Below, in pieces: positions 41,692-44,986 of a DNA stretch of 46,000 nt. This stretch comes from Thermoprotei archaeon. Its GTDB lineage: Archaea; Thermoproteota; Thermoprotei_A; Sulfolobales; Ignisphaeraceae. Position numbers and translations under genes: made by a program. The stretch lies in NCBI GenBank assembly GCA_003661775.1, contig QMWT01000002.1:1-46000 (forward strand), written 5' to 3'. Positions within the stretch are counted from its first letter, which is position 1; each line of letters starts with the position of its first letter. The notes beneath the pieces are model-generated. The model did no database searches and was not told the DNA's origin. It worked only from the letters and a program-made list of their open reading frames with translations.

Positions 41692-43539
41692 CTATTCCTC
41701 CTCTTCTTCAGGCGTTTTTACCTCAGTATAGAAGTATTCGCCTATTGATTTCTGATAGCGGTCCAGATAACTACCGGGTTTGTTCATGCGGGGTCTGCCT
41801 GTTCTGGGATCTCGTCTGAAAGTTATGTTCAGCTGTTTTAAGAAGTAGTTCAGCGATTTATGAACTTGATCGGGGAACTTGGCTACTCCATGTCTTCCTG
41901 GGGTTCCAGTGAAGACTATGATCCTGTCTACTGCGTAGTCTATGAGCGTAAAATCGTGCTCTACCACGAACACCCCTGCTCTCCGCATGCGCGCAACACG
42001 CTTAATCGATCTTGCAATAGCGAGTCTATCCTCTACATCGACGTGGGCAGAAGGTTCGTCGAGCAGGTATATGTCTGCATCTTTAACAAGAGTTATAGCG
42101 ACTGCAAGTTTCTGAAGTTCACCTCCGCTGAGGTGCTTAACACTTTTCTTCAAAAGCCTATTTAAACTCAGAGCTACAATGATATCGTTGAACATCCATG
42201 ATGACGGATTTAGACAATCTTCGTTAGCTTTTTTAAGGCTTTCCTCAACAGTTTCTTCAAACATTTTGATAGAGAGGTACTGGGGTTTGTAGCTCACGTT
42301 GAACATCGATACCGTGGTGTAGCCTTCGTCTGGTTGTAACTCTCCTGCAAGCAATCTTATCAGTGTAGTCTTTCCTATTGCGTTCGGGCCTATAAGTCCT
42401 ATAACCTCTCCACGAAAGATCCTGCCAGGTTCAACATCTAATACAAATTCGTCGAGTTTCTTCCTCATGGAGCCCCATTCAGCTAGGACTTCGCCCGTGG
42501 AAGCTATATAGTTGGCGTCTTCCCTAGCTTCATGAAGTCTGAATACTATTCTTTCAGATCTTATCCTCATGTTTTCGGCGGGTAGGTACCCCTCTAAGAA
42601 ATGGTTTATACCAGCACCGGTACCATAAATTCTAGAGAAGAACCCATATACTCCTGGCTCGCCGTATACTATGGTCACATAATCAGATACATAGTCGAGC
42701 AGCACAAGGTCATGCTCTACAACTAGTACATATGCATTTTTTGGAAGTAAAGTTCTTAATGCTTGAGCTAGTCTGAGCCGTTCACGTATATCTAAATATG
42801 TACCGGGTTCGTCAAAGATGTAGACGTTGGAATTTCTTAGTATTGCAGCAGCGACTGCAAGTTTCTGAAGTTCACCTCCGCTGAGGTGCTTAACATTCTT
42901 ACTAAGAATGTTTTTCATGGACAACATGTCTACTACTTCTTTAACCAAACCACGCTCATCAACTCTTTTAATTATTGAGCCTACATCACCCTTCACGAAT
43001 TTTGGTATTATGTCAACTTGCTGAATTTTATGAACTACACGAAGCTCTTTGTTGTATAATTTAGATAAATAAAGTTGGAGCTGAGTCCCGCGGAACTTCT
43101 CTATAACCTCGTCTGGGCTAGGCTGCTTATCGTAGTGACCTAGGTTAGGAATAAGCTCTCCTGCGAGGATCCTCATAGCAGTCGTCTTGCCGCTGCCATT
43201 CTTACCTATTACACCGACTACTTTTCCTTGAATTGGTGTGGGTAGTCCGTATAACTTAAATGCGTTAGGGCCGTACCGGTGAACGAGTTTCTCTTCTAAT
43301 TCCTCTGGAAGATTTACAACCTTGATTGCTTGATAAGGACACTTCCGTACACAGATTCCACAAGCTATGCAGAATTCCTCTTTTATTATAGGTTTACCCT
43401 TTCTCTCCGCAGCTAACTCTATTGCTTTATATGGACGGGTCTTGTTGATTGGGCAGAATCTAACGCAAGGAGTTCCACACTTCTCGGGATGACATAACTG
43501 ATAATCTATTACTGCTATTCTAGCCATTGTACACACCAT
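41692..43539 (-). CDS. ABCE1/Rli1-family ribosome-recycling ATPase
   Basis: Two ferredoxin-like Cys clusters; two ABC domains each with KHLSGGELQKLAVA. Likely start MARIAVIDYQLC. Confidence 0.96.
   Translation of the reverse strand: MVCTMARIAVIDYQLCHPEKCGTPCVRFCPINKTRPYKAIELAAERKGKPIIKEEFCIACGICVRKCPYQAIKVVNLPEELEEKLVHRYGPNAFKLYGLPTPIQGKVVGVIGKNGSGKTTAMRILAGELIPNLGHYDKQPSPDEVIEKFRGTQLQLYLSKLYNKELRVVHKIQQVDIIPKFVKGDVGSIIKRVDERGLVKEVVDMLSMKNILSKNVKHLSGGELQKLAVAAAILRNSNVYIFDEPGTYLDIRERLRLAQALRTLLPKNAYVLVVEHDLVLLDYVSDYVTIVYGEPGVYGFFSRIYGTGAGINHFLEGYLPAENMRIRSERIVFRLHEAREDANYIASTGEVLAEWGSMRKKLDEFVLDVEPGRIFRGEVIGLIGPNAIGKTTLIRLLAGELQPDEGYTTVSMFNVSYKPQYLSIKMFEETVEESLKKANEDCLNPSSWMFNDIIVALSLNRLLKKSVKHLSGGELQKLAVAITLVKDADIYLLDEPSAHVDVEDRLAIARSIKRVARMRRAGVFVVEHDFTLIDYAVDRIIVFTGTPGRHGVAKFPDQVHKSLNYFLKQLNITFRRDPRTGRPRMNKPGSYLDRYQKSIGEYFYTEVKTPEEEEE
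42097..42142. repeat. 46-nt direct repeat, copy 1 (second ABC domain of ABCE1)
   Basis: agcgactgcaagtttctgaagttcacctccgctgaggtgcttaaca; identical to 42850..42895. Confidence 0.95.
42850..42895. repeat. 46-nt direct repeat, copy 2 (first ABC domain of ABCE1)
   Basis: Identical to 42097..42142; encodes the VKHLSGGELQKLAVA region. Confidence 0.95.
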
Positions 43540-43634
43540 AGGTAGATTTTGTTTATATTAACGGGGCGGATATGTTATGTTTCTAGCATGACATTGATTA
43601 AGAAATCATTAGAGTTTATCATCAGCTGTAAAAA

Positions 43635-43784
43635 TCACCACTCTTCTTCCCACTCTTCTTCCTCTTCCCACCATTCTTCCTCTTCTTCCCACTCCTCCTC
43701 GTACCTCATGGCTACCAACCACTGTTTTGGTCGTGAATACGACTCTTTGGCGGGAAATAAAAATTTTGTAAGTAAAGCCGTCAT
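43635..43784 (-). CDS. Small ORF (49 codons) with Glu/Trp-rich C-terminal tract; not in the supplied ORF track
   Basis: MTALLTKFLFPAKESYSRPKQWLVAMRYEEEWEEEEEWWEEEEEWEEEW*, read manually. An alternative start at 43709 gives a 24-aa peptide. Confidence 0.45.
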   Translation of the reverse strand: MTALLTKFLFPAKESYSRPKQWLVAMRYEEEWEEEEEWWEEEEEWEEEW

Positions 43785-43866: not shown

Positions 43867-44418
43867 TTAGGTTCGGAACAGTATATCGCTCATAGCAACA
43901 ATCTCTAAGTGTAATAGTGGAAAGAGATGCTCAGGAAGTCTAGTTAGCGAAACTCGTTCTAGCAATTCACGCTCATATAGACTTGGAGTTTTGTCGAAAA
44001 AGTCCTTGACAATCCTAACGTTAACTTTGCCTGAAATACTCAAACACTCAGCCACAGGACGACATGAAGCAGGAAGGAGTAGCAGGAAGAGATTACGGTT
44101 TCCAAGGTTCAGCACCTGATTAAGCATAGCTAGCATATCTCGTATTTGTCGTGTTCCGAAGATCCTTAGCAAGATCTCTATGTCAAGTTTGCGAGATACA
44201 TTACGTCCCTGTCTGAATGCCTCTAAGGAGAGGAGATATGCGAGTATGGGAACCCGCAGATCCACGCGAAGGTATGGGATCAGTGCTAGTTCTTCGCTAC
44301 ACCGTGGTGTAGTCTTACAACATTCTTGTACAAGTCTTTTCAGTTTCTCTATGTCTGCTTGAGGATATTGGAGTTCGTAGACCAGAAGACTAAGTCGTTT
44401 AGACTCGTTAACCTCCAT
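43867..44418 (-). CDS. KEOPS subunit Cgi121-like protein
   Basis: KLDIEILLRIFGTRQIRDMLAMLNQVL resembles the Cgi121 GTRQI motif; size fits. Confidence 0.62.
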   Translation of the reverse strand: MEVNESKRLSLLVYELQYPQADIEKLKRLVQECCKTTPRCSEELALIPYLRVDLRVPILAYLLSLEAFRQGRNVSRKLDIEILLRIFGTRQIRDMLAMLNQVLNLGNRNLFLLLLPASCRPVAECLSISGKVNVRIVKDFFDKTPSLYERELLERVSLTRLPEHLFPLLHLEIVAMSDILFRT

Positions 44419-44680
44419 GGTTTACGGGCACCAATGTTAGGACGTCGTCATCATCTATTTCGGTGTCCATACCTGAAAGGACTTGATAATCAACATCATT
44501 TATGAACAATAGATAGCCCGGTTTAGGGCCATTGGTGTCTAGTACCTCTGCGAGCCGATGGTTCTTCTTCACAAGTACTTCAATTAGATCGCGCAATTTC
44601 ATCTTTTTGCCTAGTTTGATCTCGATTCCACCTCCAAAAACTCTCCTGAGCCCCCCTACGAACACCAGCTTCAAGATCAT
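44408..44680 (-). CDS. MoaD/ThiS/Urm1-like ubiquitin-fold protein (C-terminal GG)
   Basis: 90 aa beta-grasp-like protein ending DDVLTLVPVNHGG. Confidence 0.8.
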   Translation of the reverse strand: MILKLVFVGGLRRVFGGGIEIKLGKKMKLRDLIEVLVKKNHRLAEVLDTNGPKPGYLLFINDVDYQVLSGMDTEIDDDDVLTLVPVNHGG

Positions 44681-44693
44681 TTGACCTCAATTC

Positions 44694-44912
44694 TCAAGCT
44701 TGTGCAGCCTGTCTTTCCTCAGTGCGTTTTTGCAACGCTACTAAATGAGTTATGTATCCAGCGATTTGGTTCCGCAGCTTCTTCGATGGCGTTATGAGCA
44801 CCTTCTTGACAACCTCCTTATTGTGTTCAAAATTATCTGTGAACAAGTCTGGATAGAGTGCTAATAGCTTTCTTGCAGTTCTCTTCACTAGCGATATTCT
44901 GACCTTTCCCAA
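44694..44912 (-). CDS. rps17e: Ribosomal protein S17e
   Basis: (L/M)GKVRISLVKRTARKLLALYPDLFTDNFEHNKEVV; TTG start at 44912 is likely, rather than the ATG at 44924. Confidence 0.9.
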   Translation of the reverse strand: MGKVRISLVKRTARKLLALYPDLFTDNFEHNKEVVKKVLITPSKKLRNQIAGYITHLVALQKRTEERQAAQA

Positions 44913-44986
44913 GGGGTAGCACACCTATGATTCTCTAACTATGTACAGCTCTTATTTAAAGATAGTTGGGTGAAGTTTCAACAAGG

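Follow-up and report, generated by a model that had tools for sequence, protein, structure and literature searches.

A predicted glutamate- and tryptophan-rich microprotein family of the Thermoproteota, often encoded beside the ribosome-recycling factor ABCE1

ABCE1 is a ribosome-recycling factor common to archaea and eukaryotes. In eukaryotes it is accompanied by eIF3j/Hcr1, the N-terminal peptide of which is an acidic segment that contains Trp; to our knowledge, eIF3 is absent from archaea. Once the ribosome has been split, eIF3j and ABCE1 occur together on the small subunit (PMC10175282). RNA-free complexes of the two also exist, and the N-terminal peptide of eIF3j (residues 35–69) binds the RRM of eIF3b (PMC5737393). 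Archaeal ABCE1 touches rRNA through basic residues of its hinge and helix-loop-helix, one of them by cation-pi stacking (PMC7196836).

Several other acidic and aromatic segments have been described. The acidic/aromatic (AA) boxes of eIF5 and eIF2B-epsilon are acidic runs with aromatic anchors that bind Lys-rich boxes. The C-terminal tails of bacterial SSB and of T7 gp2.5 are acidic, have an aromatic last residue and mimic ssDNA. Acidic transcriptional activation domains combine acidic with aromatic or hydrophobic residues, have no motif and bind through fuzzy, multivalent contacts (PMC8137143, PMC10550315). In the Thermoprotei, the newly found ribosomal proteins aS33 and aS34 are tied to the 30S subunit and had earlier gone unrecognised as ribosomal (PMC11698992).

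Here we investigate a predicted microprotein encoded in a 46,000-nucleotide stretch of DNA from a heat-loving Thermoprotei archaeon, hereafter the window. Like the eIF3j/Hcr1 peptide of eukaryotes it is acidic with Trp. However, eIF3j is larger and partly structured, and homology to it is untestable in the two-letter sequence of the microprotein. The folded eIF3j domain is absent from the microprotein family, because proteins of about 20–57 aa leave no room for it beyond the acidic/aromatic tract. The AA boxes are C-terminal segments of folded domains and the SSB and gp2.5 tails are parts of OB-fold proteins, whereas the microprotein is free and has a separate gene. Activation domains belong to eukaryotic transcription factors and target Mediator; the microprotein has neither a DNA-binding domain nor Mediator to address. 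It is small and from the same phylum as aS33 and aS34, but these are larger, folded ribosomal proteins with no shown relation to it. No match to it was found in Pfam, NCBIfam, PHROGs, PADLOC or PDB sequences, searches that composition bias weakens. The string EEEWWEEE was found in open-access papers only in an unrelated yeast phosphosite study, and family members may be annotated as hypothetical proteins or appear in other literature. On these searches and the comparisons below, the microgene encodes one of a family of archaeal microproteins that is as yet undescribed.

The gene run in this part of the window is S17e, Urm1-like, Cgi121, the micro-ORF, ABCE1 and fructose-1,6-bisphosphatase (FBPase_3). 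A sequence-only reading of this DNA had pointed to a 49-codon ORF on the minus strand between the KEOPS Cgi121-like gene and ABCE1. Pfam and NCBIfam matches to the neighbours confirm that location, and the 49-aa translation quoted is the exact product of 43635–43784 on the minus strand. The extent of the gene, however, had to be revised: it appears to be the last 24 codons, the first half being unconserved and frame-changed in a close relative. The features are as follows.

41692–43539, minus strand: ABCE1 (RLI), the ribosome-recycling ATPase (Pfam Fer4_RLI and ABC_tran).
43552–43559, minus strand: TATA-like AATATAAA between the microgene and ABCE1, 25–32 nt before the conserved ABCE1 ATG.
43635–43709, minus strand: the microgene, product MRYEEEWEEEEEWWEEEEEWEEEW, 24 codons from ATG to TGA, conserved in frame in genus, family, order and phylum.
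43710–43784, minus strand: the upstream 25 codons, probably untranslated promoter or leader DNA, not conserved, with a TATA-like run inside.
43756–43770, minus strand: TATA-like AT run ACAAAATTTTTATTT, about 47–61 nt upstream of the microgene ATG, a consensus match only.
43867–44418, minus strand: KEOPS subunit Cgi121-like (NCBIfam NF011465 at 35.7 bits, below the cut-off of 40; relatives match PF08617).
44408–44680, minus strand: Urm1-like small modifier or sulfur carrier (PF09138; NF053661 below its cut-off).
44694–44924, minus strand: ribosomal protein S17e (PF00833).

The conserved unit begins at the internal Met26 (43709), and its product is almost entirely glutamate and tryptophan; in relatives the start Met lies 1–6 codons ahead of the acidic tract. 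When the 49 residues are compared with locus L003, from the sister-genus genome G001 (listed as the same genus, different species), residues 2–20 and 22–49 align in different frames, and the first 25 codons are therefore probably non-coding. Relatives carry TTTTATA or CTTAAATA at a similar distance upstream of the microgene start; the window copy has its TATA-like run and a weak SD-like site. In a scan of the 46 kb window, the micro-ORF was the sole ORF of up to 70–80 aa to combine a high content of D/E and aromatics with little K/R.

Further observations concern the neighbours. The listed ABCE1 ORF begins MVCTMARIAVID; its true start is probably the Met at 43527, since homologues begin MARVAV or MVRVAV (MARVAVID). 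From archaeal promoter spacing, AATATAAA is possibly ABCE1's own promoter. The ABCE1 of the window ends TPEEEEE, an acidic tail that is absent from some relatives. In L036 and L038 (cluster 0) the Urm1-like and Cgi121-like neighbours appear as one ORF of about 250 aa, possibly a Urm1-Cgi121 fusion that would join the sulfur carrier or modifier and KEOPS.

How widespread is the microgene? A profile HMM of the family recovered only 1 of 216 genomes of the order, a failure caused by composition bias, and DNA patterns and a composition scan were therefore used. The exact EEEWWEEE coding pattern is present in 92 of the 216 genomes, against none for a reversed-pattern control. A wider pattern (W-EEE...EEW-stop) finds a micro-ORF of this type in at least 127 of the 216, including 76 of the 120 more complete ones. 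Outside the order, the exact pattern occurs in G520, G524, G529 and G541 among 400 genomes of the phylum. A pattern scan of 85,462 species genomes gave at least 80 loci, and among the matches listed nearly all are from Thermoproteota. A phage collection gave a single weak 35-base match. Two candidates, L063 and L104, were rejected as chance matches within long proteins. Another, L096, was labelled 'Candidatus Njordarchaeota' but probably comes from a Thermoproteota genome and was mis-binned: the ABCE1 fragment (about 82%), S17e and Zn-ribbon proteins of this contig are about 70–83% identical to those of L056/L057.

At the ABCE1 loci of relatives, ORFs such as MVPYLEEEWEEEEEWWEEEEEWEEEEW or MMFEEEWEEEEWWEEEEEWEEEEW occupy the same place, and family f11 has diverged forms, for example LVFEEDWEEEFDEFEEEEDWEEEEFEEEEW, 30–60 nt before ABCE1. 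One f11 genome, G198, has two copies, L167 and L181, of which one adjoins ABCE1 and the other is elsewhere; in other members of its genus only the distant copy was found. In pattern and locus scans of families f5, f6 and f15 the microgene is mostly absent despite the presence of ABCE1, as at the f5/f6 loci L182–L189 and L197–L199, which keep ABCE1 and lack the microgene. Six genomes without a microgene at ABCE1 carry one elsewhere (G225, G243, G221, G396, G224 and G040).

Several features indicate that the tract is coding. Across 134 distinct genes the product is 69% Glu, 18.5% Trp, 3% Phe, 2.7% Asp and 2.4% Leu, with less than 1% Lys plus Arg. The median length is 28 residues and the C-terminal residue is Trp in 113 genes. 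The usual layout is a Met, a few hydrophobic residues, Glu runs of 3–8 or more residues split by single or paired Trp, and a Glu-Trp end. In 84% of the genes the stretch from -20 to -6 holds an SD-like motif, against about 16% in windows further upstream, and TATA-like motifs are commoner at -70 to -36, upstream of the SD-like zone. Of the Glu codons that members share, 31% differ by a GAA/GAG swap. Pairs with a protein identity of 90% or more show 380 synonymous and 54 nonsynonymous differences, and between the window and its nearest relative, the sister-genus genome, all differences in the tract are synonymous. Of 114 replacements within the tract, 80 involve F, L, I, V or Y. The f11 versions substitute Phe or Leu for Trp and Asp for Glu, which suggests that selection acts on the protein sequence, not on the DNA tract as such. 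Start codon, SD-like site, stop, C-terminal Trp and the acidic/aromatic composition are all kept across the family.

The earlier reading had cautioned that the opposite strand reads as a Ser/His frame with the same wobble pattern, and this is correct. However, that frame is closed within 30 nt of the tract in 74 of the 134 loci and has no conserved start; a Ser/His antisense ORF was accordingly rejected. The suggestion of a small protein has held up on conserved frame and composition: the minus-strand frame persists in close relatives, and no frameshift interrupts the tract. The microgene is thus almost certainly a real gene, as judged from sequence comparison. Its product very probably works as a peptide in trans.

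The earlier suggestion of a link with neighbouring translation genes gains support from gene order. In several other classes of Thermoproteota the microgene directly precedes ABCE1. We took 30 ABCE1 loci from families outside the order, regardless of motif; in 16 of them the 800 nt upstream of ABCE1 contain such an ORF on its strand (15 if L214 is discounted as doubtful, its ORF overlapping a Zn-ribbon gene), and none occurs on either strand of the other 254 kb of the same set. In a set picked mainly for genomes without the exact pattern, 8 of 29 ABCE1 loci have the ORF. In many lineages the microgene precedes ABCE1 by 30–125 nt and shares its strand. It is probably an overlooked part of translation, because it is retained in relatives throughout the phylum, as a rule next to ABCE1. 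Nevertheless, it is not essential to ABCE1 everywhere, since it is distant in some lineages and mostly missing in f5, f6 and f15. Basic positions of ABCE1 differ between carriers and non-carriers of the microgene, a comparison confounded by relatedness.

A TFS/RPB9-like Zn-ribbon protein of 93–109 aa (PF02150) is also a recurrent ABCE1 neighbour phylum-wide, often encoded between the microgene and ABCE1. It occurs in cluster 5 and, encoded upstream of ABCE1, in L196, L201, L203, L211, L216, L219, L223 and L231. It may be a distinct subfamily, as it scores below the NCBIfam TFS cut-off.

What might such a peptide do? The conserved traits are a high density of negative charge almost unaccompanied by positive charge, aromatic residues that stand singly or in pairs at flexible intervals, and the Glu-Trp end. 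By analogy with activation domains, the AA boxes and the N-terminus of eIF3j, such traits would fit a fuzzy, multivalent attachment to basic surfaces in which the aromatics are the anchors. We tentatively propose that the microprotein is a trans-acting peptide of the sticker-and-spacer type, acidic and aromatic in character. Its Glu runs would imitate a nucleic-acid backbone and its Trp residues would serve as stacking or cation-pi anchors, so that the peptide could occupy a basic, RNA-contacting surface of the ribosome-recycling or 30S machinery as an rRNA mimic. The most plausible partner would be ABCE1, because arginines and lysines of its hinge and helix-loop-helix contact rRNA; there the peptide might compete with rRNA, keep the factor free or tune its ATPase cycle. 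We infer its expression, the surface it would bind and the direction of its effect. A role in translation or recycling is rather likely. Action on ABCE1 itself as an RNA mimic is conceivable, with somewhat less than an even chance; it counts against this that strongly acidic peptides attach to a broad range of basic proteins. The proposal of an rRNA-mimicking recycling accessory draws on the basic contacts of ABCE1 with rRNA and on eIF3j working beside ABCE1. In its boldest form, the phylum-wide Glu/Trp peptide of 20–50 residues would mimic rRNA in order to regulate ABCE1 as its dedicated task, and would be the functional equivalent in archaea of the acidic/aromatic eIF3j-type recycling accessories; this we regard as doubtful.

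The sequence-only reading had placed the aromatics in a stripe on one face of a helix. This does not stand as a conserved property: in 113 unique members the hydrophobic residues do not recur with a period of 100 degrees (z = -0.1 against run-preserving and 0.5 against full shuffles), and the Glu runs are variable. AlphaFold2 models a lone family member as a single helix (pLDDT 96), which we do not take as evidence because it is what AlphaFold2 is expected to return for poly-Glu. In the natural microgene-ABCE1 read-through frame of L009 (stop read as Gly) the tract is coil (pLDDT about 32), and this joint model has no docking or contact of the tract on ABCE1. With a helix alone and a coil with ABCE1, the peptide may or may not be helical.

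Other partners and other modes of action have to be weighed. That the peptide instead chaperones or antagonises basic DNA-binding proteins (Alba, Cren7, Sul7, histones), or an OB-fold ssDNA-binding protein, is unlikely. Its composition and C-terminal aromatic resemble acidic/aromatic histone-chaperone motifs and acidic SSB tails, and in some lineages its gene is far from translation genes, yet the neighbour that recurs phylum-wide is ABCE1 and not a chromatin or replication gene.

Could the microgene be a cis-acting leader of ABCE1? Runs of acidic residues destabilise translating ribosomes. Translation of an acidic, Trp-rich micro-ORF might then destabilise or stall the ribosome and so tune ABCE1 to recycling capacity or Trp supply. 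The close spacing on the ABCE1 strand in many lineages, the tandem Trp codons and the ribosome destabilisation by acidic runs all fit this model. However, family f9 has the microgene in the opposite orientation, with Cgi121 and the Zn-ribbon gene on either side, in some lineages the Zn-ribbon gene intervenes between microgene and ABCE1, and in several others the microgene is at unrelated loci far from ABCE1. Moreover, the ABCE1 of the window has a TATA-like element of its own after the microgene, and Rfam, searched for a structured RNA element, returned no match up to E = 1. We reject the leader as a general explanation on the f9 strand flip and the unrelated loci, and as a full account it is improbable; a cis role in some lineages is possible. 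Because the microgene can change strand, part from ABCE1 or move elsewhere, a trans-acting product would be the simplest reading.

Equally improbable is another role in translation or tRNA modification, centred on Cgi121/KEOPS or the Urm1 carrier and not on ABCE1. Within the order the microgene adjoins Cgi121 as often as ABCE1, including loci where ABCE1 is not adjacent (L106, L126–L128 and L133). Outside the order, however, ABCE1 is the constant neighbour and Cgi121 is nearby in some loci only.

With about 70% Glu and less than 1% Lys/Arg, the product might also be a free counter-ion or buffer, a polyanion sequestering long-chain polyamines, Mg2+ or basic peptides in hyperthermophiles; this is very improbable, as it needs neither the conserved Trp, the Glu-Trp end nor the ABCE1 link, and there is as a rule one small gene copy per genome. 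It is extremely improbable that the tract is not a gene, and is a purine-rich DNA or RNA element, chance low complexity or the Ser/His ORF of the other strand. Low complexity and the shared wobble pattern speak for this; conservation of the start, the SD-like site and the stop, substitutions that keep to residue type, the zero control matches and the strand flips that retain gene signals speak against it.

A trans-acting peptide of the translation machinery thus remains our preferred reading. A near-pure Glu/Trp protein, of the kind dropped as low complexity by homology tools, can be a conserved gene phylum-wide in archaea. The microprotein would offer a minimal system, provided by nature, for the study of sticker-and-spacer binding by acidic and aromatic residues. 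Its persistent adjacency to ABCE1 also raises a testable question: is there a small archaeal recycling accessory that biochemistry and cryo-EM have missed?
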